DNA of 64,000 nt from NCBI GenBank assembly GCA_003153555.1, contig PLZS01000130.1:1-64000 (forward strand), in the 5' to 3' direction. The first letter of the stretch is position 1; each line of letters opens with the position of its first letter. The stretch is from Candidatus Melainabacteria bacterium (GTDB lineage: Bacteria; Cyanobacteriota; Vampirovibrionia; Obscuribacterales; Obscuribacteraceae). The notes beneath the pieces were generated by a model. The model was not told where the DNA came from, did not search any database, and saw nothing but the letters and a program-made list of their open reading frames with translations. Below are positions 1-53,315 of this stretch, in pieces. A program made the position numbers and the translations under genes.

Positions 1-1313
1 CTAAAGCCAGGAAGTATGTGCGGATGGCTCATCAACTTTTGCCGAACACTTGCGCGCGCATTCGCATTGCAAGCCACCCAACGCAACTCCTGATCATACT
101 GTTCTAAAAGCTTCATAAAAAATTGCAGCGGATCTGCACCAGCAATTCTTGCAGCTTGGGCAATCGACTTTCCAACTAACAAAGAATCCGGAGCACTAAC
201 AATTGTAATTCGATTAAGGTCGCGATGAAACGTACGCGGAAATCCACCCAGCCACGACTTCTCGAACTCAATACGAAATGCCGGGTCACGCCAAAGAGCA
301 GCTCTTTCTTCCTTTGTCTTGCAATTATTCAGTTTTACTCCGCCAGAGAACTCCTCGAAAAATGGAGTCAGGTATCCGTCTGCATAAATAACAAACGGCT
401 CCGCAAGAGTTTGAAAGCGAATATTGCATCCCAGCAACTGATTGCAAACAAACAAGAGCACTGAAAAAATGCGCCACAAGTGTGGCGCACCATCCATATC
501 CAGCGCAGAAAGTATTGTATTTCGAAGTGGTGCTCGCCACAGTCCTGGGCTCAATCGAAGAATATCAACCAATGACCATAGGTTCTGCGGGTTAGGCGTA
601 ACCTGAAAGACAGCATTGCGTTTTCTGCAAACGTCTGCAAGCATTTTATATTCAACAAACGAGGCATGGTGCGAAGGCAGCGCGCGCCCGGCGAATGGTC
701 CACTCACTTTGTGCCAATGCACCATATCAACCGAAATCCCGATGCATCCAGACTCTAAAGCCTCCTCGGCCAACTGCTTCATTGTTTCGATTTCGTCTGC
801 AGTTGCGTGCTCAGCAAGGCTGCGTTCAAGACCCATCACCTTCACCCGCAATGCACTATGTCCGAGCATGCTGGCAACGTTGGGTCCAAGCGACAACTGT
901 TTCAAATGTTGAAAATACTGGTGAGGAGATGACCAGGCTTTGGCAGACTTTAGCCAGCCGCCAATCAGCTCCGCGGGCAGCGTTTCGACGCGAGAGAAGA
1001 TGTGCGCCAAATCTTCCGGTTCGCCATAGATGGTGGATAAACTGCAACCTCCCATGACGATTGAAGTGACACCATGTCTGACAGATTCAGATAAGGAAGG
1101 GGCCAATTCGACTTCCAAATCGTAATGTGTATGGATATCGATAAACCCTGGAGTTATCCACAAACCTGAAGCATCAAATTCCCTGTCGGCAGAGACTTTC
1201 AATTTCGGTCCCAAAGCCGCAATGCGACCATCGCGAACGGCGACGTCGATAGATTTACCTTCACTAAATCCATCAAAGACGAAACCGTTGCGCAGCACGA
1301 GATCGCATTGCAT
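1..1313 (-). CDS. N-acyl-D-amino-acid deacylase / D-aminoacylase-type amidohydrolase (3' end outside window)
   Basis: The frame is open from an ATG at 1313 to the window edge (437 codons), so the C-terminus is missing. The N-terminus has the small beta-sandwich start of the amidohydrolase superfamily, then a PGFIDIHTHYD segment whose HTH pair binds metal, and a GGCS motif at the place where D-aminoacylases carry the metal-bridging Cys. Family members hydrolyse N-acyl-D-amino acids or related amides in the cytoplasm; the real substrate cannot be read here. A later segment with NNCKTKEERAALW also fits the family. It lies 8 nt behind the NTF2-like gene on the same strand and is probably co-transcribed with it. 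Dihydroorotase or urease-type amidohydrolases are less likely because of the GGCS position and the length. Confidence 0.85.
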   Translation of the reverse strand, partial: MQCDLVLRNGFVFDGFSEGKSIDVAVRDGRIAALGPKLKVSADREFDASGLWITPGFIDIHTHYDLEVELAPSLSESVRHGVTSIVMGGCSLSTIYGEPEDLAHIFSRVETLPAELIGGWLKSAKAWSSPHQYFQHLKQLSLGPNVASMLGHSALRVKVMGLERSLAEHATADEIETMKQLAEEALESGCIGISVDMVHWHKVSGPFAGRALPSHHASFVEYKMLADVCRKRNAVFQVTPNPQNLWSLVDILRLSPGLWRAPLRNTILSALDMDGAPHLWRIFSVLLFVCNQLLGCNIRFQTLAEPFVIYADGYLTPFFEEFSGGVKLNNCKTKEERAALWRDPAFRIEFEKSWLGGFPRTFHRDLNRITIVSAPDSLLVGKSIAQAARIAGADPLQFFMKLLEQYDQELRWVACNANARASVRQKLMSHPHILPGF

Positions 1314-1960: not shown

Positions 1961-2128
1961 TATTTTCTCGCTTGTTAACAAAGACGGCCGCTATACTATA
2001 CAGCAAGCGAGACACAGGAACCTTTGAAACAGGCATGGACAGTGGATATCCCGATATATCGAATGATACCACTGGTGAGGTAGCGTGATCGACAAAGTGT
2101 CTATCGGTCAGTGCGATCAGTTCCAAAA

Positions 2129-3484
2129 ATGAAAAAAATGAAACCACAATTGTCCTCAAATGGATTGTCGAATGCACCTATAGAGCGCAGATTGCTGCTA
2201 GCCCTGACAGGCTGTGTCTGCTTGGGCACTGTATTGCTCCTCGTGTACACTCCGCCGGTCACCACACTTGCGCTATTCATTGCATATTCGATTGCTTTCA
2301 TTTGCCTGCGTCTTCTTGCCAGAACAGACGGCAAAGTTGATCGATCGGTGCCACGCGACATCAAGCAAAACTTCTACCAACCATCGATCTCGATTATAGT
2401 TCCGGCCCACAATGAGGCCGCGGTGATTGGCGCTGCAGTGCAAATGTTGCTGCAACAAGATTATCCCAACTACGAGTTATTGGTAGTAGATGACCGAAGC
2501 ACCGATGGAACTGAGGCTGTCCTGCGAAGCATACGCAGCAACTCCCATTGCCGATACAGATACTATGCTCGTCCAAGCGGAAGTACGCCCGGGAAATCGG
2601 CTGTATTAAATGAAGCGCTCCATCAAACTAACGGGGAGATAATTGCAGTCTTCGACGCGGACGCGCAAGTAGAGCCTGACTTTCTATCGAAAATGGCTCC
2701 CTATTTCGCAGATTCTTTGACGGGTGCTGCGCAAGCGCGAAAGGTCTTGTTCAATGCCGAGGAAAATTTCCTAACACGTTGCCAGCAATATGAATATTGT
2801 ATGGATGCATATATTCAAGTCAGACGTGACACTATCCGCAGTGCCGTAGAATTGCGCGGTAACGGTATGCTGCTGCGGCGATCAGCACTGGAAGCCCTTG
2901 GCGGACTGAACGAGCACACCCGCGGTGAAGATCTTGACTTGTGCACCAGAATGCATGTTGCCGGTTGGGACATTCGCTATGATCCCAATGTGATCGTCAA
3001 AGAAGAAGGACTTACGAAGCTCGGTCCCTTGATGCAGCAGCGCATACGATGGACGGAGACAAGCATCATTCGCTATTTGGAAAACGCTAGTCAAATTCTC
3101 TTCAACCCGCAACTTGCTCTTAGAACAAAGATGGACGCCAGTCTCTTTGTCTTTGAGTTCATCGGACCTATTTGGCTATTCTTAGAAAACATCCTGCTAA
3201 CGATACGGTGGCTGACTGGCCATATGGCATCACAAACAGTGCTATTTGCCACTCCTGCCATGACCGTTCTTTCCCTGTATTTCGTCTATGCCAGCTTTCT
3301 GGGAATTTCAAGATTCAATCGAGCTTCCCTTGGTCGTTCGATTCAAGGCACCGCCATGGTTTATTTCTATCTATCGTTTTTGTGGCTGCCTATCGTCTTC
3401 TATTTGACGTTCAAAATTCTTTCTCGAAAGGAACGCCACTTGGTATGGGAAAACACTCCACACTTCGGGGTGGCAGTGGAATGA
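2129..3484 (+). CDS. Membrane glycosyltransferase family 2, processive (PgaC/BcsA-like) type
   Basis: Two N-terminal membrane helices are followed by a GT-A domain that begins SIIVPAHNEAAVIGAA, with the DDRST motif, a FDADAQ metal-binding DxD motif, GEDLDL as the base-containing ED motif, and QRIRW as the QxxRW acceptor motif around residues 304-308. Three more membrane helices close the protein. This set is typical of inner-membrane enzymes such as PgaC or hyaluronan synthase that transfer sugars from nucleotide donors to a polymer or lipid. A GTG at 2111 is an alternative start; neither has a clear Shine-Dalgarno. It is the first gene of a seven-gene operon and its stop overlaps the next start (ATGA at 3481). 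Donor and acceptor are unknown; context suggests glycosylation of a lipid or oxidised product. Confidence 0.88.
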   Translation: MKKMKPQLSSNGLSNAPIERRLLLALTGCVCLGTVLLLVYTPPVTTLALFIAYSIAFICLRLLARTDGKVDRSVPRDIKQNFYQPSISIIVPAHNEAAVIGAAVQMLLQQDYPNYELLVVDDRSTDGTEAVLRSIRSNSHCRYRYYARPSGSTPGKSAVLNEALHQTNGEIIAVFDADAQVEPDFLSKMAPYFADSLTGAAQARKVLFNAEENFLTRCQQYEYCMDAYIQVRRDTIRSAVELRGNGMLLRRSALEALGGLNEHTRGEDLDLCTRMHVAGWDIRYDPNVIVKEEGLTKLGPLMQQRIRWTETSIIRYLENASQILFNPQLALRTKMDASLFVFEFIGPIWLFLENILLTIRWLTGHMASQTVLFATPAMTVLSLYFVYASFLGISRFNRASLGRSIQGTAMVYFYLSFLWLPIVFYLTFKILSRKERHLVWENTPHFGVAVE

Positions 3485-4221
3485 GTCCCTGGATGCTGTG
3501 CGCGCTTCTACCGATGCTGACTTTCCCTCTTCTTCTTTTGGCGGAGAACCGATCGCAGGCAAAGTTAAATGCGTGCGACTATGCCACGGGCGATTGGATT
3601 TTGAATTTGTCCGGTTTCTTTATGCAAGGGCTTGTCATTCCGGCAGTTGGCTTTTTGCTAGCCACGCATTTGTTTCCAGCCATGGTTCCGAAGCTGCGCG
3701 GCTGTCTGCAGATTGGTTTTATTGGCGCATTTGTTTTGAATTTTGTTGGCGTGGATTTCCTCTACTATTTGCAGCATCGTGCTTTCCACCGCATACCGTG
3801 GTTGTGGAAACTGCACGCGCCCCACCACTATTCGCCAGCAGTGAACGTATGGGCGACATCACGCAACGCCCTGGTCACTCACTTCTTTTTTGTCTACATG
3901 TTAGTAAGTCCAGTGCTCGCCTATTTATGCGACGTCACCGAGGGCTTTTTTGCGGGCGCAATGTTGACTGCAGCACTCGATCTGTTTCGCCATGCCAAAC
4001 TCAATTTCAGATTGCCTGGATTGGATGGTGTCATTCTCATGCCCCACGATCATCACCGTCATCACGACGCAGATAAGCCTGAAGCAAACTTTGGTGCCAA
4101 TTTTATTTTGTGGGATAAACTCTTCGGCACTTTTGCTTTAGGAGTGCGTTTTCCGAGTTCGTACGCACCGCCGAATACCCCATCCTACAAAACGCAGCTG
4201 CTCTATCCCTGGAGGTCTTAA
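3481..4221 (+). CDS. Sterol desaturase / fatty acid hydroxylase family membrane diiron enzyme
   Basis: The 246-residue protein starts at ATG 3481, overlapping the glycosyltransferase stop by four bases, which implies coupled translation. It has four or five membrane segments and the histidine boxes of the family: HRAFH, HAPHH and HDHHRHHDA, which bind a non-haem diiron centre and hydroxylate or desaturate lipid-like substrates using oxygen. The last box is more His-rich than usual. Length agrees with short bacterial members, including those that modify sterols, carotenoids, sphingolipids or alkylglycerols. The neighbouring ferredoxin could supply electrons. The operon also carries AurF-like and Rieske oxygenases, so the product is probably oxidised at several positions. 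The substrate is not predictable from sequence alone. Confidence 0.88.
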   Translation: MSPWMLCALLPMLTFPLLLLAENRSQAKLNACDYATGDWILNLSGFFMQGLVIPAVGFLLATHLFPAMVPKLRGCLQIGFIGAFVLNFVGVDFLYYLQHRAFHRIPWLWKLHAPHHYSPAVNVWATSRNALVTHFFFVYMLVSPVLAYLCDVTEGFFAGAMLTAALDLFRHAKLNFRLPGLDGVILMPHDHHRHHDADKPEANFGANFILWDKLFGTFALGVRFPSSYAPPNTPSYKTQLLYPWRS

Positions 4222-4265
4222 TAGTGAATTTTATCCCTAGTGGTATTCACGCCCGCACCAACTCT

Positions 4266-4270
4266 GGAGG
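4266..4270 (+). promoter_or_regulatory. Shine-Dalgarno that decides a TTG start
   Basis: GGAGG lies 8 nt before TTG 4279, making this the likely start of the AurF-like protein instead of the upstream GTG 4240. Confidence 0.6.
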
Positions 4271-4278
4271 TTACTAAT

Positions 4279-5463
4279 TTGCATCCACAGCTAGCACAAA
4301 GGGACAGCAAGTCTTTGCTCGATGACCATTCGACTTACAGGAAGCTGGAACTAAACAAAAAGCGCAACTATGAACAAGATCATTCAGCCATGATGGATGA
4401 GGCTACTTCCTTGTTCGTCTACGAGCACTGCAAAGATGAATACTGGAATCCAGAGGAATTCTCCATCCTTTACGGAACGCCTCTCTGGCACGAAGCTTCA
4501 ACCTCCCAAAAAATTCTTCTCAACCAACTTTATTGGGTCGCATACTACGCTCAAATTATTTCCGCTGAGATTGCCACCATTTATTTGAATCAAGTTTCTG
4601 CAGCCGGATTGTACACGCATGAAGACTTTCGTATAGTATGTGATTCGCTTGATTTAGAAACCAAGCAAGAGCGGGCTCATATCAATGCCTTCAAAACGAT
4701 AGGTGAAGACGTTGAATGGAGGCTCTTTGGTGAACGGCTTTTCACGTATCCAATGCGTAGTCTCTTTGAACAGACTATGGTTTTCGCTGATACCAACCCC
4801 GCAAAAGATTTTTGGAGAATGCTTCAGATCAAGGCGTTTACGCTTCTATCATCCAGCAATGCTTTTCTCGCTAGTCAGTATTTGCTTGTCAGAGGATTGC
4901 GCACTCTTAACGGAAAGCTGATTCAGCATAAGCTTTCTAATTATTACACCATCCATCCAGATAAGGAAAACGCCCCTATCCCATCGAAGATCAGTTACTA
5001 CCACTTTATGGATGAGAGCTTTCACTTCAATACATCAAAAATTATTGGTCACGAAATTCCCCGCAGTTTAGATCCACCGACGGCGTTCGAAAAATTGATA
5101 ATCAATAAGGGCATTGCCGGCTGCCAGAGGGATCACTTCAATTTCTCTGCCACCATAAAAGGGATCTTTTGGTACGAGCCTTCTTTGTTTGCGGTTTTAT
5201 ACAAGCTCTTTCGTTCGCCACACTTCGGCATGAGCGATGCCGAAGCAAAAGTAATGCTGGACAGATGTTTTTGTCAGGAGAATGAGGCTATTCATCAATC
5301 ATTCGAACTGCACCAAACTGCTCATGCTTCTTACAAGGCATACGTGGATTCGATTACATACATAGACAGTCAGAATCGAAATATGGAAATAATGGGCAAC
5401 AACTCAATCCAGAAGTATTTGAAACACAATGCTAATTCGCTGCGTGCGTTTAAGGGATCGTAG
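4279..5463 (+). CDS. AurF-like (p-aminobenzoate N-oxygenase family) diiron oxygenase
   Basis: I place the start at TTG 4279 because GGAGG lies eight bases upstream; a GTG at 4240 is in frame but lacks a ribosome site. The product (394 residues) is all-helical with Glu and ExxH motifs spaced as in ferritin-like diiron oxygenases: ISAEIATIY, ETKQERAHINAF, FMDESFHFN, IIGHEI and ENEAIHQSFELH. In the AurF/CmlI family such residues hold two irons that oxidise aryl-amines to nitro compounds; other members hydroxylate carbon. It is three bases before the ferredoxin gene. The assignment rests on motif spacing, so the substrate and even N- versus C-oxygenation are open. It could instead be a distant member of another ferritin-like oxygenase family. 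Confidence 0.68.
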   Translation: MHPQLAQRDSKSLLDDHSTYRKLELNKKRNYEQDHSAMMDEATSLFVYEHCKDEYWNPEEFSILYGTPLWHEASTSQKILLNQLYWVAYYAQIISAEIATIYLNQVSAAGLYTHEDFRIVCDSLDLETKQERAHINAFKTIGEDVEWRLFGERLFTYPMRSLFEQTMVFADTNPAKDFWRMLQIKAFTLLSSSNAFLASQYLLVRGLRTLNGKLIQHKLSNYYTIHPDKENAPIPSKISYYHFMDESFHFNTSKIIGHEIPRSLDPPTAFEKLIINKGIAGCQRDHFNFSATIKGIFWYEPSLFAVLYKLFRSPHFGMSDAEAKVMLDRCFCQENEAIHQSFELHQTAHASYKAYVDSITYIDSQNRNMEIMGNNSIQKYLKHNANSLRAFKGS

Positions 5464-5465
5464 CG

Positions 5466-5762
5466 ATGGCGTATAACATAGAGTTCCCCGAAACCATTCA
5501 TAAACCTGTCTGCCTGCCAGATGGAGCCAATCTGTCCGAGACGCTGACAGTAGTAAATTCACCCGTTCTCTTTGGTTGCCGAACGGGAATTTGCGGAACC
5601 TGTCTTGTGCAGATTGAGGATGGTTACGCGACGTTGAGCCCACCGAATGAAGCCGAGCAAGAAGCACTCGAAATCTATGCGCCAGGAAATGAAACAGCAA
5701 GACTGGCTTGCCAAATCAACTTGACCAGCAACATCGCATTGATAAAAATCGAGGGCGTCTAG
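5466..5762 (+). CDS. 2Fe-2S ferredoxin (plant/cyanobacterial type)
   Basis: This is a 98-residue single-domain ferredoxin. The cluster ligands are visible as CRTGICGTC (C-x4-C-x2-C) around residues 38-46 and a fourth Cys in ARLACQ near residue 81, the standard spacing for plant-type 2Fe-2S proteins. It acts as a soluble one-electron carrier. It is placed between the AurF-like diiron enzyme and the Rieske oxygenase, with 2 nt before it and an overlap with the next GTG start (TAGTG), so it most likely delivers electrons to one or both. No ferredoxin reductase gene is in the operon; a housekeeping reductase would have to serve. Confidence 0.93.
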   Translation: MAYNIEFPETIHKPVCLPDGANLSETLTVVNSPVLFGCRTGICGTCLVQIEDGYATLSPPNEAEQEALEIYAPGNETARLACQINLTSNIALIKIEGV

Positions 5763-6838
5763 TGGCTGACCGGCAACATTGCAGTGATACAAGAGGGAAT
5801 GTGGTGGCTGAGTCACTGCTTCCACAATATTGGTACGTCGTTGCTGAGGCTCGGGAGCTCACGCAGAACGCAGTGTTGGCACGCACGATTCTGGACGAGT
5901 TGTTGGCGTGTTATCGCGATCAGCAAGGTAATGTCGTAATCGCTCAGGATCGTTGTATTCATCGAAGTGCTCGGCTATCTTCAGGGACAGTCGAAGATGG
6001 GAAATTAAGCTGCAGATATCACGGTTGGGTTTATGGTGAGAAAGGACAGATCGTTTCCATTCCCTGCGAAGGCGGAGAAGAGTTCGCATCGCAATGCGGA
6101 ATGAAAGCGAAAACGTACAAAACGATTGAGCAAGATGGCTATGTGTATGTGTGCTTAAAACCAGGAGAACACACACCGCCTCGACCGCTCACACTTTCAG
6201 AGCTCGGCTCAGTTTGGAAAGGAAGAGTTCGGCTACAAAACAGTTTCAAAAACTCGCTCTCCAATTGCGTCGAAAATTACATCGATGTACCACATACCGC
6301 TTATGTGCATCATGGCATTTTCAGGAAGCCGCGAGGAGAACCTCTACGCACCACAGTGACCAGACATGACGGACGCATAGACATTACTTATCATGGCGAG
6401 CGACTCAACCTGGGCACCTTCAGTGCTTTCCTGAATCCTCAGGGCTCCGAAATTGTCCATACAGATCATTTTTTCGCTCCAAACGTTACGAGCGTTCACT
6501 ACCATATGCAGTGCGGCTACCGCTACTCGATTAGTTCGCAATCAATTCCGGTCAGTGCTATGGAGACGATGGTCTACACGGATATCAGTTACGATTTTGG
6601 CATTTGGACACCGCTTGCAGGTTGGTTGGTGCGTCGACAAGCGCAGCAGGTCCTCATACAAGATATTGATATTCTCAATGAACAAGGGCGGAACATCGAT
6701 AAATACGGAGAACGTTTCTACACAACTTCGGCGGATACGATTCACACTTTAACCAGTGAGATAATTGTCGGCCTTAAAAATGGCATTACTCCTGCGAATC
6801 TTTCTTCTGAGGAAAAGGAGATTACTTTCTGCGTATGA
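5762..6838 (+). CDS. Rieske non-haem iron oxygenase (PaO/CAO-like monooxygenase)
   Basis: The start is GTG 5762, overlapping the ferredoxin stop (TAGTG) with GAGG just upstream; a TTG at 5708 is in frame but lies inside the ferredoxin gene. The Rieske 2Fe-2S site is C65-x-H67 ... C84-x2-H87. The catalytic mononuclear iron motif follows as D-x2-H-x4-H in YIDVPHTAYVH. The C-terminal part (VLIQDIDILNEQ) resembles the pheophorbide a oxygenase/chlorophyllide a oxygenase branch, whose members oxidise large hydrophobic or aromatic substrates. About 358 residues is normal. It overlaps the next gene by ATGA. Electrons probably come from the adjoining ferredoxin. Substrate unknown. Confidence 0.92.
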   Translation: MADRQHCSDTRGNVVAESLLPQYWYVVAEARELTQNAVLARTILDELLACYRDQQGNVVIAQDRCIHRSARLSSGTVEDGKLSCRYHGWVYGEKGQIVSIPCEGGEEFASQCGMKAKTYKTIEQDGYVYVCLKPGEHTPPRPLTLSELGSVWKGRVRLQNSFKNSLSNCVENYIDVPHTAYVHHGIFRKPRGEPLRTTVTRHDGRIDITYHGERLNLGTFSAFLNPQGSEIVHTDHFFAPNVTSVHYHMQCGYRYSISSQSIPVSAMETMVYTDISYDFGIWTPLAGWLVRRQAQQVLIQDIDILNEQGRNIDKYGERFYTTSADTIHTLTSEIIVGLKNGITPANLSSEEKEITFCV

Positions 6839-7443
6839 CAATGCTTGGACGACTTGCTTGCTTCTTCCCGATCGCACACCTGAGCTTGATTTTATTTGCT
6901 GCGCTCATGTTCGTCTCGCATCCAGGATTAGCAACTTTCCTATCAATACTATTCTCCATTTACTTGTTGCCACCACTATTGTTCCGAGCCTACTCGTTGA
7001 AGTATCCTTCAAAATCGGGGCGATGGGTAATCAACAATGGCCAACGTTGTGATTGGTGGATTGCTCATCAACTGCAGATGATCTACGCTGCCGTTCCCGC
7101 CTTCGAAGCGTTCCTACGCTTAGTACCGGGACTATACAGTGCCTGGTTACGCCTGTGGGGAAGCAAGGTAGGCAAACGCGTTTACTGGACACCTCTGGTC
7201 GAGATTATCGACCGTCATATGTTACGCATCGGCGACGATGTAATTTTTGGACACCGAGTAGTGTGCACATCACACGTGGTGTCAAGAAAAGAGAACGGTG
7301 AATTTGTATTGCTGTTGCGTTGCGTGCGGATTGGCTCTGGCAGTTTCATTGGTGCTCTCTCAAGGCTCGGACCGGGAGTCAAAATACCAGCAAAGTCCGC
7401 CATTCCTTACGACACCGAATATCGATTTTCATATGCCGAATAA
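6835..7443 (+). CDS. Membrane-anchored hexapeptide-repeat acyltransferase-like protein
   Basis: The 202-residue product starts in an ATGA overlap with the Rieske gene. Residues 10-50 hold one or two membrane helices. From about residue 105 the sequence reads like a left-handed beta-helix of hexapeptide repeats (KVGKRVYWTP, LRIGDDVIFGH, VRIGSGSFIGALSRLGPGVKIPA). Such proteins usually transfer acetyl or longer acyl groups from CoA or ACP to sugars or lipids in the cytoplasm. I do not see a full catalytic His context with certainty (DVIFGH and CTSH are candidates), so the enzyme class is inferred. The gene overlaps the start of the GH3-like gene by 11 nt, suggesting acylation and adenylation act in the same pathway. 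Confidence 0.62.
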   Translation: MTMLGRLACFFPIAHLSLILFAALMFVSHPGLATFLSILFSIYLLPPLLFRAYSLKYPSKSGRWVINNGQRCDWWIAHQLQMIYAAVPAFEAFLRLVPGLYSAWLRLWGSKVGKRVYWTPLVEIIDRHMLRIGDDVIFGHRVVCTSHVVSRKENGEFVLLLRCVRIGSGSFIGALSRLGPGVKIPAKSAIPYDTEYRFSYAE

Positions 7444-9202
7444 GTTCATTGTTGGTGCGACGGTGAACTTGCTTCGTGCGCTGTGCTGGCACCATTACAT
7501 TCGATTTCACAAAAGTCTAAATAGTCCAAACACAGCACAACAGGCTGTGTTTGAGAAGGTGGTAAGAGATCTTGCAAAGTCTGAGTACGGAAAGAGATAC
7601 GGCATAACAGGTAAGGAAAATTATCAGGAGTTCGCTGCAAAAATTCCCGTCCAAAGTTATGAGCAACTACAACCGTGGATCACGCAGCAATTGAGTCAGC
7701 GGAAGTCCAGAAGTATCACACCACACCGAATCATCCATGTAGAGCAAACTTCGGGAAGTTCGAACGCAGCAAAACAGATTCCTTATACAGTTCAGCTGAT
7801 AAAATCGTTCACCAACATGTTTCGAATATGGGCATACGATCTTCTGAGCAATGGATTGACACCTGAAACTGGACGCATGTTCATTAGTGTTTCTCCAGCT
7901 ATAGGGAAGCTCAAAGTCCAAAATAACATTCAATCCGGCAGCGAAGGGGTCTCGGGGAGCGAAGAAAGATCCGCGAGCAACAGGAAATCCGAGAGCGAAC
8001 GAGGCTCCGCAAGCAATAGGAAATCCAAGAGCAAAGAAAGATCCGCAAGCAACGGAGAATTCGAAAGCGACGGCGACTATCTTGAAGAACCGCTCCGGTC
8101 ACTCGTATCGCGCTTTCTCGTAACGCCACCAGCAGCCGACTGGCCAAACTTTCAACACCAACTAGCGTTGACACTGCTTGAGGATGAGCAACTAGAGATT
8201 ATTTCTGTATGGAGTCCAACGTACCTACTCGTTGTCCTTGACTACATAGAAAGAAACAAACCTCTATTGGACAGTTCGCTGACGCGACGTGTATTGCCTT
8301 GTTCAGACGATTCACCAATCGATTGGCAGAAGATTTGGCCGCGACTGAAGCTAATTTCCTGCTGGGATAGTGCCATGGCTCAGACTTCTGCGGCTCGAGT
8401 CAGAAAGTTGTTTCCCAATGTCCACGTCCAAGGAAAAGGCTTGTTAGCTACAGAAGCGCCCATAACGGTGCCACTTATAAGTGCTCGGGGATGTCTGCCT
8501 CTGCTCAACGACGTCTTGCTTGAGTTTGAAACAAGTGAAGGCACCATAAAGAGGCTACATGAACTTGTCGATGGCGAGCGCTATCAAGTAATCGTCACTC
8601 AGCAGTCTGGACTAACACGCTACCGACTCCATGACGTTGTTGAAGTGCGCGGCTTCTTTAGGCAAACCGCAAAACTTGAGTTTGTTGGGCGAGCGAACTC
8701 TGTGTGCGATCTTGCAGGCGAAAAATTGCAAGAGCAATTTGTTCGTCGAACGTTGACTGCGATTCTACCTCAATGTGATTTCCTCCTGACTCCAACTGAT
8801 GAAAGTCATTTGGGTTATGTGCTCCTAGTCGATCCGCAAGGGACCAATCGATACGATGAAACCGATCGATACGATGGAATCACGGTACAAGCTGACGCAG
8901 CCTTGTGTCAGGCGCACCACTACCGATTGGCTCGCGATCAGGGACAGATCGCGCTCTTGCGAATGCTCTTTGTTCCGAATCTAAAGAGCAGACTGCAAGA
9001 TTTTCATCAGGAAGAAGGAATGAAAATTGGCAACATTAAAGAAGTTGCTTTGCTTACTGACCTTGCAAAAGCAAGGAGACTTTTGGTGTTTATTAACGCG
9101 CAGATAGATAGCTGCAAGCCGCTTCGTGTGAGCTCATCGGAGCAAAGCTACCCGTTGCATTCAAGTTCTCAACCAGATGCTCAACTCCCGGTTGAAGCAT
9201 AA
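7433..9202 (+). CDS. GH3 auxin-responsive-promoter family acyl-adenylating enzyme
   Basis: I start it at ATG 7433; the frame is open further upstream but only into the previous gene. The N-terminal ARTEYGKxYG-like element (LAKSEYGKRYGITG), the ATP loop EQTSGSSNAAKQIPYT, and a later LTRYRLHDVVEVRGFF segment are hallmarks of the GH3 family, which adenylates a carboxylic acid and passes it to an amine to form an amide. Bacterial members make acyl-amino acids or act in natural-product pathways. Between the ATP loop and the core lies a hydrophilic insertion (around residues 165-215) made of three 12-residue Ser/Lys/Glu repeats. The 3' end overlaps the convergent ferritin-like gene by 110 nt. It is last in the operon. 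The acid and the acceptor amine are unknown. Confidence 0.85.
   Translation: MPNKFIVGATVNLLRALCWHHYIRFHKSLNSPNTAQQAVFEKVVRDLAKSEYGKRYGITGKENYQEFAAKIPVQSYEQLQPWITQQLSQRKSRSITPHRIIHVEQTSGSSNAAKQIPYTVQLIKSFTNMFRIWAYDLLSNGLTPETGRMFISVSPAIGKLKVQNNIQSGSEGVSGSEERSASNRKSESERGSASNRKSKSKERSASNGEFESDGDYLEEPLRSLVSRFLVTPPAADWPNFQHQLALTLLEDEQLEIISVWSPTYLLVVLDYIERNKPLLDSSLTRRVLPCSDDSPIDWQKIWPRLKLISCWDSAMAQTSAARVRKLFPNVHVQGKGLLATEAPITVPLISARGCLPLLNDVLLEFETSEGTIKRLHELVDGERYQVIVTQQSGLTRYRLHDVVEVRGFFRQTAKLEFVGRANSVCDLAGEKLQEQFVRRTLTAILPQCDFLLTPTDESHLGYVLLVDPQGTNRYDETDRYDGITVQADAALCQAHHYRLARDQGQIALLRMLFVPNLKSRLQDFHQEEGMKIGNIKEVALLTDLAKARRLLVFINAQIDSCKPLRVSSSEQSYPLHSSSQPDAQLPVEA
7967..8074 (+). repeat. Three 36-bp tandem repeats inside the GH3-like gene
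   Basis: Units at 7967-8002, 8003-8038 and 8039-8074 encode 12-residue repeats of the pattern RSASNRKSESER, GSASNRKSKSKE and RSASNGEFESDG. The first two units are closest; the third has diverged. The repeats form a charged, serine-rich linker that a normal GH3 protein does not need. Confidence 0.85.
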
Positions 9203-10025
9203 GCTGCTTCAACAACATCAGCTTGCGCACCGTCTCTTCTTCATGACGGAGTGCCACCAAAACCTCTTCTACGTCCTCAAGTGACAGCCCACCGGATATT
9301 TGATCTATGGCGGCAACCGCAGCCTGCGGGCCTACTCGCACCATTTGTGTATAACCTTGAAGCGCGTCGCTAATCAATGAAAAATCAGCAACCGAAAACA
9401 CAGTAGAGTCAAAGAGTAAATTACCGCTTTTGTGATGCAGTGCTTCATCCTTCAGAATAGACGAAAAGATTTTCGACAACTGCGGCTGCGCGCAGCCCTT
9501 CGAAAGTCGATTGTAGTGATCTAGTCCCCAACCTTCGAGAATGATTTGCACTAGATAGACAAGCAAGGCCGGCGAAAATTCCTCGATTAGTTTCGAGAGA
9601 AACAGAAGAAAGTGTCCACTCGGCAGTTGTTTTTCTTGTGCATCTAAATAAGGCTCGATCCAAGCCAGATGCTTGGCTTCGTCGGCACCTATAAACGAAT
9701 AGAGCTGCGCATTATCCGTACATTCCGCTGTCAACACCATCTTCGCGCAATACGCCAATCCAGATTTTTCAATAAAGTATGCTTCGTTTAAAAGCGACTG
9801 GTTACAGCGCCCCAGCACGCGCCGCTGTTGCTCCTTCGACAGTTTCGTGTATACAACACTTGTATGGAATCCCCACCATTCGTCCGACCACAATGCGCTG
9901 TAATCGATTGTTGACGGCTCGAATTCCGAAGACATTCCAGTCTTACTCAAAATCATTCGGTAGAGCGGAGACTGCTTACCGGCATGTGGTGCGCTTAGGT
10001 TGTTACGCACTTGTATGTCACGCAT
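9093..10025 (-). CDS. Ferritin-like diiron protein (possible oxygenase)
   Basis: The 310-residue product starts at ATG 10025, seven bases after TGGAG; a GTG at 10061 is an alternative. It is helical, with four carboxylate/His clusters spaced as in ferritin-like diiron enzymes: NEAYFIEKSG, ADEAKHLAW (ExxH), ILEGWGLDHY and KDEALHHKSG (ExxH). These residues should bind two irons and activate oxygen. It is not close in sequence to the AurF-like protein in the operon it faces. The stop lies inside the GH3-like gene, giving a 110-nt convergent overlap. It forms a minus-strand group with the SDR and arfB. Whether it is an oxygenase, a desaturase-like enzyme or an oxidase cannot be decided. Confidence 0.7.
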   Translation of the reverse strand: MRDIQVRNNLSAPHAGKQSPLYRMILSKTGMSSEFEPSTIDYSALWSDEWWGFHTSVVYTKLSKEQQRRVLGRCNQSLLNEAYFIEKSGLAYCAKMVLTAECTDNAQLYSFIGADEAKHLAWIEPYLDAQEKQLPSGHFLLFLSKLIEEFSPALLVYLVQIILEGWGLDHYNRLSKGCAQPQLSKIFSSILKDEALHHKSGNLLFDSTVFSVADFSLISDALQGYTQMVRVGPQAAVAAIDQISGGLSLEDVEEVLVALRHEEETVRKLMLLKQLMLQPGVEHLVENLNATGSFAPMSSHEAACSYLSAR

Positions 10026-10104
10026 TCGTTGACTCCAGCAGGTTTTCCACCTGACTCTCACTACTGTGAGTCCTGCAGCTAATTCGCATTTGAATGTTAC
10101 TCAA

Positions 10105-10959
10105 TCATCTTATCTCCAGCAATTTTTTGCTCATGTTTCGCAGAACATGGTCAGCGACTTTCTGAGGTAGTGACCGGCGAATATAATACAAAGCTTGCGT
10201 ATCTTGTCCGACTCGAACTCGCAAGGGTACAACGCTCTTATTCGAAAGGCTGAATACTGCATCGGCAACGCGTGTCGGATCATTGCCCGGCTGTTCCATC
10301 CTGCGTGCAAGAAATCTGCGATAACCTTGCATCTGCGGCTCATATACTACAGAGTCAACCGAGTTGCTTGACTTACACGGCCATTGGATATTAGCAACAA
10401 AACGCGTGCGAAATCCTCCAGGCTCGACTAAACAGACCTGTATTCCATGAGAACCTAATTCGTATGAAAGACTTTCGCTCAATCCTTCGAGGGCGAATTT
10501 ACTGGCTACATAAAGACTCTGAAGTGGCATTCCAACAAATCCAAGCACAGAAGAAATGTTGATCACCTTACCTTTCGCTGCACGCAAAGCCGGCAGTAAA
10601 TCGCGCGTCAGCAATAGAGGCGCAAAGAAATTGACTTCGAACTGCAGTCGAATTTGTTCTTCAGTCAAGGACTCTAACGGACCGGAAAGTCCGTAACCCG
10701 CGTTATTAATTAGACAATCCAAACTGTTCGAACACAGCTCGGCCACGCGCTCGACAATCGCAGTTCGCTCAGAGTTCAATGCTACATTTAACGGAAGTAC
10801 TGTCAGATTATCGCTCTGAATGTCATTCAACTGCTCTGGATGTCTGGTTGTAGCAAACACTTTCCAATTGCCAGAGTGCAGAAAGCGCTCGACCATGAGC
10901 CTGCCAAAACCAGATGAACAGCCCGTTATTAGAATAGTTTTGCAATCTTTCAATTTCAT
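10105..10959 (-). CDS. Short-chain dehydrogenase/reductase (classical SDR)
   Basis: The 284-residue protein has the Rossmann nucleotide loop TGCSSGFG near residue 12, the structural NNAG motif (LINNAGYG), the catalytic Ser in INISSVLGF, and YVASK as the YxxxK catalytic pair. The lack of an acidic residue right after the second strand and ATTRHPEQ after it suggest NADPH preference, as in the retinol/carbonyl-reductase-like SDR group. It reduces or oxidises a carbonyl or alcohol in the cytoplasm. It follows arfB by six bases and precedes the ferritin-like gene on the same strand, so it may work with the metabolic cluster opposite it. Substrate unknown. Confidence 0.9.
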   Translation of the reverse strand: MKLKDCKTILITGCSSGFGRLMVERFLHSGNWKVFATTRHPEQLNDIQSDNLTVLPLNVALNSERTAIVERVAELCSNSLDCLINNAGYGLSGPLESLTEEQIRLQFEVNFFAPLLLTRDLLPALRAAKGKVINISSVLGFVGMPLQSLYVASKFALEGLSESLSYELGSHGIQVCLVEPGGFRTRFVANIQWPCKSSNSVDSVVYEPQMQGYRRFLARRMEQPGNDPTRVADAVFSLSNKSVVPLRVRVGQDTQALYYIRRSLPQKVADHVLRNMSKKLLEIR

Positions 10960-43134: not shown

Positions 43135-45612
43135 CTACTCTACAATTGGGATTGGAATTTGGTTGACGATTCTGGTTAACGCTTCAAACGAAGTCTCTAA
43201 GCAACTAAAGTGTTTGGCTATCGCTTGCCAATCTTCGCCTTTTCCCGCGAACTCTAACTCTTTGCTAATCGCCGAAACTTTCATTGCTCCCATACCACCA
43301 GCGGCGCCCTTGATCTCATGAGCCGTGTCGATAATGTCCTGAAGTTCCTTACGCTCGATAGCAGAGCGAAGATTATCGATCGATGATTGCGTGGATGCGA
43401 CGAAAAGTGGCATCAGTTCCGCTAACATTGCCTCAGGCAGCACCATTTCGAGATCCTTCAGATTCTCGATCGCATTCGAGTTGTTACTTGAATCCCCCGT
43501 CCATTTTGCGAGCATCTTAGACATCTTCTCAAGAGAGGTCGGCTTACTTAAATAATCATCCATTCCAGCAGCGATGCATTTGTCTCGATCACCTTCCATA
43601 GCGTGAGCAGTCAAGCCAATAATGGGGATGTGTTTTCCTGTCAGTGCTTCCGATTTTCTAATTACATTCGTGGTTTCAAATCCATCCATTTCAGGCATTT
43701 GGCAGTCCATCAGGATAAGCATGTAATTTCTTCGCTTTAGTTCTTCTATAGCTGAGCGTCCGTTGCCAACGGCCAAGGCTTCATAACCTAACTTTTTGAG
43801 CTGCAACATTGCCACTTTTTGATTTACAGGATTGTCTTCTGCAATGAGCACCATCTCCTTGTTGAGTGAGTCCGAGTTTCCTAACGAGGAATCCAAATTA
43901 GTGAAAGCACCAACTTTGTCATCGTCATCACTGATCATCACTTTTGCAATCGAATTAAACAAGCGCGATTGCTGAACAGGCTTAGTCAAATAGGCTGAAA
44001 AACCTAACTCTAGAGCCTTTTCTCCCTGATTTTTGATGTCATATCCGGTGCACAAAAACACCTTAGTACTTCGCAGCGTCCGGTCTTGCTGAATGCGTTT
44101 CAACAAACTAAAACCGTCTTGCTCAGGCATAGCCAAATCAGTAATGACAATGTCATATGGAATTTTGGATTTAGCTTTCTCCTTTAACTTTTGCAGAGCT
44201 TCGTCGGCACCACTGGCCACGTCGCACTTCATTCGCCACGAATGCACATAAGCCTGAATGATCGTTCGCGCGCTAGCTTGATCGTCAACAACAAGCACTC
44301 GAGTGCTATCCAACCTCTCATGGTACGGTGCGGGACTGCCGGTTTCTGAGCCGACTGCAAAAGGCACTTCGAACCAAAATGTTGATCCCTTATCAACTGT
44401 GCTATTGACGCCAATCCTTCCGCCCATCAATTCAACCAAACGTTTTGAAATTGACAGTCCTAAGCCGGTGCCACCAAACTTACGGGTGGTCGATCCGTCG
44501 GCTTGCGAAAATGGACGAAATAGTCGTTCTATGGTCTCTTCCGAAAGTCCTATTCCAGTATCCCTGATGCCAAAATTGACCACTACTTTACCGTCAACAT
44601 TAGACTTTTCAGCCCTGGTGGCGAGAACAACCACTTCACCTTTTTCTGTGAATTTCATGGCGTTACCAATCAGGTTCAGCAATACTTGCCTGAGACGTCC
44701 CGAATCACCCTTCAGTACTTTCGGCAAATCAGGATCGATGAACGTCATTACGGAAATATTTTTGTATCGCGCTTGCTCACTCAATAACTCAGCGGTGCCT
44801 TCAACGAGCGGGATCACATCGAAATCCAAAATCTCCAGGTCAAGCTTTCCAGCTTCGATTTTTGAAAGGTCAAGGATGTCGTTAATAATGATCAAAAGAG
44901 CCTGAGCTGATTCTCTAATAATGCGGGCGAATTCGCGTTGCTCAGTAGATAGTGGTGTATGCAACAGTAGTTCTGCCATACCGATCACGCCATTCATGGG
45001 AGTGCGAATTTCGTGACTCATATTTGCCAGAAATTCGGTTTTCAGTCGGTCTGCTTTTTGCAATTGTCGACTGCGTTCTTCAAGCAGCTCCTTTTCCATT
45101 TCCTGCCGAAGCAACTCTTGGTGAATCAATTGCTTTTCTGTCTCGAGTCGATCTTTCTCTTCTTGGGCGCGCTTCTTTTCAATTTCAGAAATTAATTCCG
45201 ACTGTCGCCTGATTTCTTCAGTCTTTTTGAACAGATCAACAAAAACACTTACCTTTGATTTCAAAACCTGGGCATTGAACGGCTTGACGATAAAGTCCAC
45301 AGCGCCTAGCGAATAGCCTAAGGAGCGATCGGCATCCTCGGTATTCATAGCAGTTAAAAATATGATCGGCGTATGCTTCGAGTTCTCTCGCTGACGAAAC
45401 AAAGATGCAGTTTCAAATCCGTTCATGCCCGGCATGTTGACGTCCAAGATTACGATGGCAAAGTCATCGCGCAAAAGACACTTGAGCGCTTCCTGACCAG
45501 AGTTGGCCTTCACCACATTCTGACCGAGGGTCTCCAGAACAGCTTCCAAAGCCATCAGGTTTTCAGGCTGATCGTCAACGACCAGGATGTTAACCGGTTG
45601 CTCTGGATGCAC
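43135..45612 (-). CDS. Hybrid histidine kinase: REC-HisKA-HATPase-REC-REC-Hpt
   Basis: The start is GTG 45612 with GGAGGGG six bases upstream; it overlaps the cheB 3' end by 23 nt. The order is receiver 1 ([12 protein letters not shown]) at residues 8-125, coiled coil, HisKA with NMSHEIRTP near 205, HATPase with NAMKFT, DTGIGL and GGTGLGLS, receiver 2 ([11 protein letters not shown]), receiver 3 ([11 protein letters not shown]) and an Hpt domain with HEIKGAAG near 755. It has no membrane part, so it is cytoplasmic. Phosphate could flow His-Asp-His-Asp inside the protein and on to the single-domain regulator or another partner. It ends an operon with cheB, cheR and the poly-HAMP kinase. Confidence 0.94.
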
Positions 45613-46201
45613 GGCGAGCCCCTCCTTCGCGTACGAGGGTTGAAATATAAGGACCGATCTCGCCTAGCGGCATTATTATTGGTGCCTTGGTCGAGGCCAC
45701 TGCAGCATTAGGCAAAGTGTCCTTTTCGGACGTCACCGGGTCTTGAATAATTACCAATCCGCCTCGGTTCTCGATGCTTGCTGCGCCATCTGCACCATCG
45801 CTGCTGGCACCCGTCAGCACCACTCCGATAACCCCACTGCCATAAGTCCTTGCGGCAGAATCGAAGGCTACGTCAATTGATGGACGGGCATAGGTAACGG
45901 GCTCATCTGCCGATAAAGAAAGACAATCGCGCTCCACCAACAAGTGATAATCGGCTGGCGCCAAATATATGCAATTTTGTTTTAGGGGCATCTTATCCTC
46001 GGCTTCCTCCACGGAGCGCCGAATAAATCGCTGCATCATGTTCGTGAGCAGGTTATCCATGCTCACCTCTGCTCCTTGTTCACGATGTTGGATGAAGATG
46101 ATTGGTACAGTACAGTCATCCTCGATTCCTGCCAGCAGCGTTTTGATTGCAGCCAGGCCTCCAAGTGAGCAGCCAATAATGATCAGCTTGTAACTCGTCA
46201 C
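45590..46201 (-). CDS. cheB: CheB methylesterase catalytic domain without receiver
   Basis: The start is GTG 46201, overlapping the cheR stop in GTGA, with AGAGG five bases upstream; the frame extends to 46207. The fold has the catalytic GCSLGG Ser near residue 11, His in FIQHREQG and Asp in [11 protein letters not shown], the CheB triad. Normally a receiver domain comes first; here it is absent, so activity is not controlled by phosphorylation of CheB itself. It removes methyl groups from glutamates of chemoreceptors or related signal proteins and may deamidate glutamines. The only candidate receptor-like protein nearby is the poly-HAMP kinase. Two bases of the 3' end are shared with the next gene's start region. 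Confidence 0.9.
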
Positions 46202-47046
46202 GCACACCTCTTATACAATTTCATCACCGAATCAAGCTCCTCATAAGCCTTTTCGTACTTGCTGAACTTAAGCGATTCCCTTTTGCCTAAGGCGAGAATT
46301 CCAAACGAGGCCATACTCTCATGTAACAAATCCAACACTTTGGTGCGCAAGTCCTCATTGAAATAGATGAGCACGTTGCGAATCAGTACTAGATTGAACT
46401 CGTTGAAAGACTTATCGGTCACCAAATTGTGCTGAGCGAAGATTATGTTCTGGCGCAGTTCTTGGTTGATGATCGCATAGTCGTATTTAGCAGTGTAATA
46501 CTCCGAAAAAGAATTCTTGCCGCCCGATTGAATATAGTTATCGGTATACTCCTTCATGTGTGAAAGAGGGAAGATGCCTGCTTTCGCTTTGCGCAAAACG
46601 TCCTCGTTCATATCGGTCGCGTAGATTCGGCAGCGATCGTAAATCCCTTCCTCTTTCAAAACGATTGCCATCGAATAGGCTTCTTCGCCAGTGGCACAGC
46701 CAGCGTCCCATATCCTAATCATTGGATAAGTTTTTAAAATTGGCACCACTTCAGTGCGCAGCGCCTGGAAAAATGCAGGATCACGGAACATGGAAGTGAC
46801 GTTTACTGTCAACGACAGCACGAAACGATCCATAATCGTCGAGTCATGCAAAACAGCCTCCTGCACAGCAGAGATGGTGCCTAGCTTTTCCAACTTTGCA
46901 AACTTCCAAATGCGCCGGCGTATAGACGCCGACGCATAATTTCGGAAGTCATAACCGTATCGCCGAAAGATTCCGTCAAGCAATAGATCGATTTCAATTG
47001 ATTCGATCTCGTCATTATCTTCCAGAGTGTTCATTAAGTCTTTCAT
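46198..47046 (-). CDS. cheR: CheR-type protein-glutamate methyltransferase
   Basis: The N-terminal helical domain (residues 10-80, with RYGYDFRNYASASIRRRI) and SAM-binding domain (WDAGCATGEEAYSMAI, then IYATDMNEDVL and LVLIRNVLIYFN) are the classical CheR arrangement. It transfers methyl from S-adenosylmethionine to glutamate residues on chemoreceptors, or in non-motile systems to kinase sensors. The length of 282 residues is normal. It starts at ATG 47046, 18 bases after the poly-HAMP stop, and its stop overlaps cheB. No receptor with the usual methylation helices is seen in the operon, which suggests the target is the poly-HAMP array. Confidence 0.94.
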   Translation of the reverse strand: MKDLMNTLEDNDEIESIEIDLLLDGIFRRYGYDFRNYASASIRRRIWKFAKLEKLGTISAVQEAVLHDSTIMDRFVLSLTVNVTSMFRDPAFFQALRTEVVPILKTYPMIRIWDAGCATGEEAYSMAIVLKEEGIYDRCRIYATDMNEDVLRKAKAGIFPLSHMKEYTDNYIQSGGKNSFSEYYTAKYDYAIINQELRQNIIFAQHNLVTDKSFNEFNLVLIRNVLIYFNEDLRTKVLDLLHESMASFGILALGKRESLKFSKYEKAYEELDSVMKLYKRCA

Positions 47047-47064: not shown

Positions 47065-50000
47065 TCATTGATAGAGCCATACACGCAGCAATGACATCAG
47101 TTGGTCAGTGTCTACAGGTTTGGCGATGTAATCCGAGGCTCCGGCTTCAATACATTTCTCCCGATCGCCTTTCATTGCTTTGGCGGTCAAGGCAATAATC
47201 GGCAGATTCTTGAATTGGTCCATGCCCCTTATTCTACGAGTGGTTTCATATCCATCAATCTCGGGCATCATCACGTCCATGAGGACGACTTCGACATCAG
47301 GATTGTCTTGAATTAGCTTGATTGCCTCCAGACCGTTTTCAGCGTAGATCACGTTCATGTGTTGATCTTCTAGGATGCTTGTAAGAGCGAAAATGTTTCT
47401 TACATCATCATCTACGATCAATATCTTGCGATCCGAAAGGATCGGGTCGCGATTGTGAGCCTGTTGGAGCATCCGACGCTTCGACTCGGGCAGATTATTC
47501 TCGACTCGATGCAAGAACAAAGCCGTTTCATCAAGCAAGCGGTCTGGAGACTTTGCCTCCTTAACGATCACAGCTTCGGTCATTTGCCTGAGGTCCATTT
47601 CTTCCTTTGCAGTGAGGTCCTTGCCGGTGTAGACAACGATCGGCAGGTTTTGCAATCCAAGCTCATCTTGAACCTTCTTTATCAACTCTGAGCCAGTCAT
47701 GTCAGGAAGTCCGAGATCGATAACCATGCAATCGAAGCGATTGGTTTTCAAAAGTTCAATTGCTTCCGCACCAGAGGCCACTGCCGTCGTCTCGACGTCG
47801 CCGTTACCGATTAGCTCAACGATGCTGTTGCGCTGTGTTTCGTCATCTTCAACGACCAATAGGTTTTTGGCTGGTCGCTCTATGAATGCTTTGATGGCGT
47901 TCATCGCTTCATTAATCGCTTCTTTGGTCACCGGTTTCTCTAAGTAGCCGATTGCTCCTTGTTTGAAGCCGCGTTGCTTTTGACCAGACGCCGAAATGAC
48001 GTTAACTGGAATGTGACGTGTCTTAGGATCATGCTTGAGTCTATCCAGCACCGTCCAACCATCCATATCAGGCAGCACTATATCTAGTGTTATAGCGTCT
48101 GGACTGAACCGTCGGGCAAGCGCTATGGCAGCGGCACCGTTCACCGCTACAAGACCTTTGAAGCCGCTCTCACGAGCTTCATCCAAAAGCAGGCGAGCAA
48201 ATGTCACGTCGTCTTCGACGATGAGCAGAACCCTGTCATCATCTTGGATGCTGCCTCGATCATCAGCAACAATACTTTCCAATAATATACTCGTATCGTT
48301 CGCAGTCTCAAGAACGTCTGGTGCAAGTGCATCATAAGGACGCTCCGTTGGTGCAGAATATGAGGACACTATGCTGCGAGGTCTGATTGATTGCACTGGT
48401 GGAACGTAATTGACAGGCAGATAGAGTGTGAACGTACTGCCTTCACCCGGAGCACTTGTCACCCTGATTTCGCCACCTAGTAGGCTGGCAATCTCACGGC
48501 TGATCGGCAGTCCCAATCCTGTGCCACCGTACTTCCTGCTTGTACTTCCATCAGCCTGTTGGAACGCTTCAAAGATGATTCTTTGTTTGTCACCAGGGAT
48601 GCCTATACCACTGTCAGTGACAGAGAAGGCAATTACCGTAGGTGTATCGTTTAACGTTAACTTGTCTGGACTCCATCCCTCCGATACAGGATGAACCTTG
48701 AGGATGATGCCACCATATTCGGTGAACTTGAATGCATTCGATAGCAGGTTCTTGAGCACTTGTTGCAAGCGCTTAGAGTCTGTACTTAACGCACGAGGCA
48801 GGTTATCAGTGAAGTCTAAATGGAATTCGAGTTTCTTAGTCTCGGCAACCTGTCTAAAGTTTCGCTCGATAGCTGCGTGTAGATCCTTGAATCCCACTTC
48901 TCCGATATCGAGAGTGATCGTTCCAGACTCGATCTTCGAGAGGTCGAGAATGTCGTTAATCAACTCAAGCAGGTCAGAACCAGATGCATGAATGGTGCGA
49001 GCAAATTCCACTTGTTTTGGAGTCAAGTTAGCTTCAACGTTGTCGGACAAAAGCTTGGACAAGATAAGCAAGCTATTGAGCGGTGTTCTCAATTCATGCG
49101 ACATGTTGGCGAGGAATTCCGACTTGTATTTCGATGTCAGTGCAAGTTGTTCTGCTTTTTCTTCAAGAGACATTCTTGCCTGCTCTATTTCTCGATTCTT
49201 GCGCTCCACCTCCGCATTCTGAGCGGCCAGCAGTCTTGCTTTCTCTTCCAACTCTTCGTTGGTTTGTTGAAGTTCTTCTTGTTGCTGAGTGAGCAGATCT
49301 TCGGAAGCTTGCAACGTTTTTGCCTGTTGCTCCAATCGCTTGTTCGTTTCGGTAAGCTCTTGTTGTTGAGCCTGCAGTTCCTGCGCAAGAGATTGGGATT
49401 GCTTCAGCAGGTTTTCCGTTCTCATGTTCGCTTCGATAGTGTTGAGCACGATACCGATGCTTTCCGTTAGCTGGTCGAGGAACGCTAAATGGATTTCACT
49501 GAACGGTTCGAACGAAGCAAGCTCGATAACTGCGCGCACGTCACCTTCAAAGATAACCGGCAGCGCTACGATATTTATCGGTGTCGCTTCGCCCAGACCC
49601 GAATTGATCTTGATGTAATCTTCAGGAGCGTTTGTAACCAAGATTCTTTGCTTCTCAACCGCTGTTTGACCGATCAGTCCTTCTCTCATTTTGAAGCGAT
49701 CGGACAAATGTTTTCTCTTTTGATAGGCGTAGCTTCCCATCAGCTTGAGTGAGCCTTCGCCTTCTTCATTCTCGTTTATGTAAAAGACACCATGTTGTGC
49801 GCCCACGAGTGGTGCTACTTCAGACAGAATCAAGTTGGCAACTGTCAACAGGTCTCTTTGTCCTTGCAACATACTTGTAAACTTGGCAAGATTGGTCTTG
49901 AGCCAGTCTTGCTCCGTATTTTTCTGGGTCGTGTCTTTGAGGTTGCGGATCATTTCGTTGATGTTGTCTTTGAGCGACGCAACTTCGCCTCGGGCTTCAA

Positions 50001-52884: not shown

Positions 52885-53315
52885 CTGTTGTCTCTCCTGT
52901 CGGCGCCCAAATTTAGCTGCCGCAACCCTTGCTGAGTTGCGCGTTCCAGCCAATTACAACCACGTATAAAATCATCGTTACCAGAGTAATTATGTCACTA
53001 TTAGTCTTCATTAGATGTACCCGGGGATCGTGCACATGCGCCTGTCACCTGTGGGTGCTGAATATCCCAGAACAATCACAAAAGGGCGCAGAGCAGGCTT
53101 CTTGCCATATTCAAGTGCCGAGCAAAAAGATTAAATTCTCGATTCCAGGCTCCGCTTTTTCATAACTGACCTTTGTTTGCTCAACTCAACAATACGTCAG
53201 GTCAATGTTGGATAATGGCAACATCTGAGCTGCGCAACTTAAGCACGACACCATATTAAGTGCCTTGCTTCACCAGTATTAATTGCTGCCTAAAGAAGCC
53301 GAAGAGAAATCAAAA
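52885..53315. other. Divergent intergenic region (431 bp)
   Basis: This holds the promoters of the signalling operon (minus) and of the CPBP protease gene (plus). I see no ORF with a good ribosome site, no RNA gene and no strong palindrome in it. Confidence 0.4.

Follow-up and report, generated by a model that had tools for sequence, protein, structure and literature searches.

The window analyzed here comprises 64,000 nucleotides of a Candidatus Melainabacteria genome of the order Obscuribacterales (7.8-Mb assembly; contig PLZS01000130.1, C74 below), beginning at the first base of the contig, and at its left end lies the Obscuribacterales copy of an orphan Rieske-containing CylC-type gene cluster, a class that is known although its product is not. 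A preliminary description made from the sequence alone had named seven genes here (2129–9202), and all seven open reading frames (ORFs) are found on the forward strand, with Pfam matches to the families it named: a GT2 glycosyltransferase (Glyco_tranf_2_3, 117 bits), a sterol-desaturase-type His-box enzyme (FAH; FA_hydroxylase, 87.5 bits), an AurF-like protein (AurF, 18.9 bits, below the gathering score of 29.6), a ferredoxin (Fdx; Fer2, 35.5 bits), a Rieske oxygenase (Rieske, 73 bits; VanA_C, 41 bits), a hexapeptide-type protein (Hexa; Hexapep, 23.1 bits, below the cut-off of 27), and a GH3-type protein (GH3_N/M/C, 98/50/23.5 bits). The tight packing it reported is confirmed as well: GT2 and FAH overlap in ATGA (3481–3484; likely FAH start ATG 3481), 57 nt separate FAH from the AurF-like gene (likely start TTG 4279, preceded by GGAGG and the same in relatives), 2 nt separate the latter from Fdx, the Fdx/Rieske and Rieske/Hexa junctions are TAGTG (5760–5764; likely Rieske start GTG 5762) and ATGA (6835–6838), and Hexa and GH3 overlap by 11 nt (7433–7443; likely GH3 start ATG 7433, conserved in relatives). 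The catalytic motifs are intact, namely the His boxes, the Rieske CxH..CxxH and NxxDxxHx4H, the plant-type CxxxxCxxC, and both diiron motifs. No cluster gene reaches the cut-off of an NCBIfam equivalog, and promoter and terminator scans stay at chance level, with promoter-like matches in 1982–2128 no more frequent than chance.

Table 1. Annotated features at the left end of the window
Feature	Position	Strand	Remark
Amidohydrolase (Amidohydro_3), N-terminal part	1..1306	-	442-aa open frame, cut at contig end
SnoaL/NTF2-like protein, C-terminal membrane segment	1322..1981	-	conserved neighbor
Divergent intergenic region separating two transcription units	1982..2128		sequence
GT2 glycosyltransferase, D-x-D + ED + QxxRW motifs, hydrophobic C-terminal part	2129..3484	+	peripheral member
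FA_hydroxylase / sterol-desaturase-type His-box enzyme, nearest curated model OlsE	3481..4221	+	
CylC/AurF-like dimetal-carboxylate enzyme, ExxQExxH + HxxDExxH, Gln at NocO E252 position	4279..5463	+	
Plant-type 2Fe-2S ferredoxin (Fdx)	5466..5762	+	
Rieske non-heme iron oxygenase 1 (Rieske + VanA_C)	5762..6838	+	
Hexapeptide-repeat acyltransferase-like protein (Hexa), hydrophobic N terminus, invariant His147	6835..7443	+	alignment; LacA/Maa matches
GH3-type acyl-acid amido synthetase, adenylation motifs TSGS..K, TE, RYxxxD	7433..9202	+	
Ferritin-like diiron protein (FerrLike), convergent with GH3	9093..10028	-	core member
Short-chain dehydrogenase/reductase (SDR)	10105..10959	-	recurrent neighbor

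The boundaries first drawn are too narrow: the true cluster is wider than seven genes, taking in the ferritin-like protein and the SDR on the right and, on the left, the SnoaL-like, amidohydrolase-Mpo1, GNAT-like, and second Rieske (Rieske2) genes, in a layout of two divergent units and one convergent unit. In two congeners (G036 and G037) the locus extends leftward with the genes for the SnoaL-like protein, an amidohydrolase ending in an Mpo1-like domain, the GNAT-like protein, and Rieske2. The amidohydrolase is split in the window genome, with matches at C74:30–1308 and C57:1380–3519, and the 4.1-kb contig C57 carries its remainder together with the GNAT-like and Rieske2 genes; the orthologue in relatives has 765 aa and the Mpo1-like domain at its C terminus by Pfam. 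The SnoaL-like protein is 76–79% identical and co-located in the congeners, its orthologue scores 20.9 bits against SnoaL_3, just below the cut-off, and its gene adjoins GT2 and the amidohydrolase in Nostoc, Planktothrix, and Microseira loci. In the ferritin-like protein the iron site (E, ExxH, E, ExxH) is invariant in 64/64 orthologues, and the model (predicted local distance difference test, pLDDT, 91.3) lies nearest to R2-like ligand-binding oxidase (R2lox), ribonucleotide reductase R2, and palmitate-bound aldehyde-deformylating oxygenase (ADO). The cluster encodes five O2-activating iron proteins at the least and probably six; the three noted earlier are present, but that count was too low. 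The 3' ends of the convergent GH3 and ferritin-like genes overlap by 110 bp (9093–9202), as they do in both congeners (L036, L037); in L040 the overlap is 4 bp long.

This combination of genes had been taken to match no described pathway, a statement overtaken by Eusebio et al. 2021 (PMC8406957), who describe 36 “Rieske-containing” clusters around CylC homologues, of unknown product, each with two to four Rieske proteins, in most cases a protein of the sterol desaturase family, and no carrier protein; two Melainabacteria homologues are already in their network. The locus has two Rieske proteins, one in the window and one on contig C57, as well as the 87.5-bit FA_hydroxylase protein, and Pfam gives no PP-binding (phosphopantetheine carrier) match among the cluster proteins. 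The CORASON survey in the same paper did not detect the Rieske-containing class, and its main text does not mention GH3. Our literature search found no later paper naming the product of the class and none on the combination of GH3, Rieske, AurF, and hexapeptide proteins; “uncharacterized” holds at the level of the product, the class being orphan (PMC8406957). The nostochloroside cluster (PMC10849952) was considered as a product source and rejected, being PKS/CylK-based (PKS, polyketide synthase) and without mention of Rieske proteins.

Both congeners have the whole set in the same order, with 52–83% protein identity, and the proposal of a single functional unit, plausibly for an oxidized, acylated, amide-type molecule, holds; a third Obscuribacterales genome has the gene set split over contigs. 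A profile of the AurF-like protein run against the GTDB collection found 143 loci, 80 of which were kept for neighborhood comparison, and in these the core genes recur in Nostoc, Calothrix, Planktothrix, Oscillatoria, Accumulibacter, Tahibacter, and Chitinimonas, as well as in Halobacteriovorax, Myxococcaceae, Elusimicrobia, Planctomycetota, and others. Unsupervised clustering of all ORFs in the neighborhoods returns the CylC-like, Rieske (2.4 copies per locus on average), Fdx, FerrLike, GNAT-like, FAH, Hexa, and GH3 families as recurrent, followed by the amidohydrolase, Mpo1-like, SnoaL-like, and SDR families, with no carrier protein, transporter, or regulator in at least 10 loci. The clustering is far beyond chance: among the 59 loci in which the AurF-like gene has full flanks, the six non-GT2 genes are all present in 37 and the eight core families in 33. 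Six of the seven genes first named are a conserved unit, and GT2, though present, is peripheral, adjoining the core outside the Obscuribacterales in only about five of 80 loci.

The distribution is patchy, extending to 4/53 genomes of the window's order and, across the phylum, to about 21/386 evenly drawn genomes whose Rieske-type copy scores over 600 bits. A distant relative in the same class (G080) has facing units, GNAT-Rieske2-FerrLike and GH3-Hexa-Rieske1-Fdx-AurF; GT2, FAH, and SDR were not found at that locus. In two further genomes, probably Synechocystis by their PriA neighbor (compare PMC8406957), CylC-like, FerrLike, Rieske2, and GNAT genes lie together, apart from Hexa and GH3. Scattering in relatives had been named as grounds for giving up the operon, and here it literally occurs; even so, genes that are found together in a genome without being linked speak for a shared pathway.

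The central enzyme, first called an AurF-like diiron oxygenase, does have an AurF-type fold, with CmlI and AurF among the best Foldseek matches (probability 0.98–0.99) of an AlphaFold2 model with pLDDT 88.7, but is better described as a CylC-type dimetal-carboxylate enzyme. With phmmer, neither the AurF-like nor the ferritin-like protein gave anything useful against PDB sequences, and the A2 profile did no better. Diiron halogenases carry the signatures ExxQExxH and HxxDExxH, the halogenase-specific Gln taking the place of AurF Asp135, and nine residues are essential in NocO (PMC12101540, PMC12871659), whose E252A variant retains iron and loses chlorination (PMC12101540). The window enzyme has both motifs, as ETKQERAH and HFMDESFH, and so do 80/80 orthologues. 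For comparison we took CylC-type paralogues with neighbors like FAAL (fatty acyl-AMP ligase), ACP (acyl carrier protein), and PKS, from genomes also holding the Rieske cluster, together with further homologues from the phylum; the E252 position was mapped from the alignment by spacing, 30 residues N-terminal to the Asp of HxxDExxH, the distance between E252 and D282 in NocO. So mapped, it is Gln in 105/105 Rieske-cluster proteins vs. Glu in 19/19 other CylC-type proteins, these being alignment rows, a few sequences occurring twice, rather than independent genomes. The window enzyme has Gln here (Q229 counted from GTG 4240) and so lacks the full set of nine, and a further phylum genome, scoring 298 bits, encodes a Glu-type protein. 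There is only one CylC-type match in the whole window genome, and the tree places it in the Rieske clade.

Three CylC-like proteins (L202:7728–8954, L203:7484–8692, and L205:5964–7220) are intermediate between the Rieske and PKS classes, 33–35% identical to that of the window and Glu-type; no Rieske neighbor was found for their genes, and those of L203 and L205 adjoin an ABC-exporter-like gene pair and a ketoacyl-synthase-like gene.

Since Gln occupies a position where NocO needs Glu, chlorination is not assured, and on its residues the enzyme is a relative of the diiron halogenases, which chlorinate unactivated carbon atoms, but cannot be filed as a confirmed halogenase. Our tentative proposal, to which we give somewhat less than even weight, is that the Rieske-cluster CylC-like enzymes form a separate functional class, set apart from ACP-dependent chlorinases by the Glu-to-Gln split and performing another C-H functionalization on a free or amide-linked acyl chain, within a pathway for an amino-lipid, one that crosses phyla and whose GNAT/GH3/hexapeptide core also exists in an O2-independent, radical-SAM form. 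A true chlorinase, and with it a chlorinated or cryptically chlorinated fatty-acid amide, is a possibility that we would place on the same footing: both halogenase motifs, including the Gln replacing AurF Asp135, are present in 80/80 orthologues (PMC12871659, PMC12101540), but all 105 Rieske-cluster proteins have Gln in place of the second-sphere Glu on which chlorination by NocO depends, and the cluster lacks ACP and FAAL, yet characterized CylC-type enzymes act on ACP-bound chains (PMC8406957).

Turning to the scaffold, the GH3-type protein belongs to the GH3 superfamily, with its adenylation motifs TSGS..K, TE, and RYxxxD invariant in the aligned set, and a bacterial GH3 enzyme, OlsH, makes N-acyl ornithine (PMC12493201). 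Hexa aligns with the LacA and Maa acetyltransferases. In small-genome, probably anaerobic relatives of the class, the GNAT-like, GH3, and Hexa genes are adjacent to each other, with radical-SAM genes, some of them encoding B12-binding domains, and an amidohydrolase gene next to them (L044:7033–12821 and L046:6852–12603), an apparent O2-independent counterpart of the cluster. This suggests that the trio is responsible for the scaffold and that anaerobic chemistry can take the place of the oxygenases. Within the GH3 gene of the window lies a 36-bp tandem repeat of 3.2 copies (7957–8070), encoding a Ser/Arg/Lys/Glu-rich insert of ~45 residues that is absent from aligned GH3 relatives, congener G036 included. 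The window genome has two more GH3-type genes (C88:89919–91334 and C171:81318–82691), and almost every genome of the family has similar ones.

We think it fairly probable, judging from family assignments, intact catalytic motifs, and the recurrence of the set, that the GH3, Hexa, and GNAT-like proteins make an amide- or ester-linked acyl scaffold that is oxidized by the Rieske and diiron enzymes. The GH3 enzyme, by analogy with OlsH and plant GH3 proteins, would adenylate an acyl chain and join it to an amine or amino acid, and the GNAT-like and hexapeptide proteins would add N- and O-acyl groups. Next, the chain would be functionalized by O2-dependent iron enzymes, namely the FA_hydroxylase, the two Rieske oxygenases (supplied by the ferredoxin), the ferritin-like diiron protein, and the CylC-like enzyme, the last attacking an unactivated C-H bond by chlorination or by hydroxylation/desaturation; the amidohydrolase-Mpo1 protein and the SDR may trim the product and adjust its oxidation state, and GT2 may glycosylate it. 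The product is likely an oxidized acyl amide, perhaps glycosylated or chlorinated, and the lack of a recurrent carrier protein, transporter, or dedicated regulator favors an amino-lipid-like product retained by the cell. Several points weigh against this reading: the literature yielded no assay of any enzyme from this cluster class, the GNAT label comes from PDB profile matches that are weak (E no better than 0.38), the E-values of the fold matches exceed 0.001, and the GH3 protein is far from OlsH (21.1 bits vs. an NCBIfam cut-off of 620), which makes a non-lipid acid possible.

It is unlikely that the enzymes instead remodel bulk membrane lipids, by ornithine-lipid-like or hopanoid/carotenoid tailoring, and make no specialized metabolite. 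FAH is nearest to OlsE, GH3 is distantly OlsH-like, GT2 has weak HpnI and CruG scores, and no transporter recurs, all as such remodeling would have it, but the curated scores are far below their cut-offs (OlsE 57.6/475, OlsH 21/620, HpnI 64/310, CruG 39/600) and the patchy distribution (4/53 genomes of the order, 22/386 of the phylum) argues against it as well; the hopanoid or carotenoid tailoring that the preliminary description had put forward as a refutation is not borne out by the HpnI and CruG scores. A chance neighborhood of unrelated redox genes, to which the unlinked genes of the Synechocystis-like genomes might seem to point, is refuted for practical purposes by recurrent co-localization in several phyla with rearranged order.

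A tree of 87 sequences groups the Obscuribacterales enzymes with two proteobacterial metagenome-assembled genomes (MAGs; 98*), separate from the oxygenic-cyanobacterial clade (99*), and places the AurF-like protein in one clade with the Rieske-cluster homologues, apart from FAAL/ACP/PKS-associated CylC-type proteins. Transfer between phyla is likely, with MAG binning and long branches standing in the way of proof. The cluster's G+C content (47.6%) equals that of the rest of the window (48.0%), so that any transfer was not recent; a recent one was sought in base composition and rejected for want of contrast. A MAG labeled Alphaproteobacteria (L049, SCTB01000042.1) has a copy of the cluster with a CylC-like enzyme 77% identical to this Obscuribacterales enzyme, by transfer or misbinning. 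Contamination of the window assembly is unlikely, as the flanking genes (ArfB-like; kinases further out) are common to the congeners. Elsewhere in the window, a 1962-aa histidine kinase (47065–52953) contains a long array of near-identical ~92-residue repeats, HAMP-like by eye, and CheR- and CheB-like genes (46198–47046 and 45590–46207) adjoin its gene.

The orphan class reaches from oxygenic cyanobacteria and their non-photosynthetic relatives to Proteobacteria, Bdellovibrionota, Elusimicrobia, and others, and its core gene set, fixed Glu/Gln difference, and apparent radical-SAM counterpart make specific tests of product and chlorination possible. Compared with known systems, the GH3 protein shares with OlsH (PMC12493201) the adenylation motifs and a putative N-acyl amide chemistry, but at 21 bits vs. 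620, in a cluster without an alpha/beta-hydrolase (OlsI-like) or methyltransferase (OlsG-like) gene. With the N-oxygenases AurF and CmlI the central enzyme shares the fold, but it falls below the Pfam cut-off, has Gln instead of the AurF Asp, and stands in no arylamine context. The CylC/NocO halogenases share the AurF-type fold, ExxQExxH, and HxxDExxH with it and differ in the E252-equivalent, which is Gln here, in their FAAL/ACP context, and by a long separating branch; the window enzyme is also ~60 residues shorter than PKS-associated CylC-type paralogues. Closest are the Rieske-containing clusters, with which the locus shares two to four Rieske proteins, a sterol-desaturase-family protein, a single CylC homologue, the lack of a carrier protein, and the same clade, whereas its host is a non-photosynthetic member of the Obscuribacterales, its genes form two divergent units and a convergent one, the amidohydrolase is fused to an Mpo1-like domain, GT2 and SnoaL-like genes are built in, and proteobacterial MAGs, not oxygenic cyanobacteria, are its nearest relatives.

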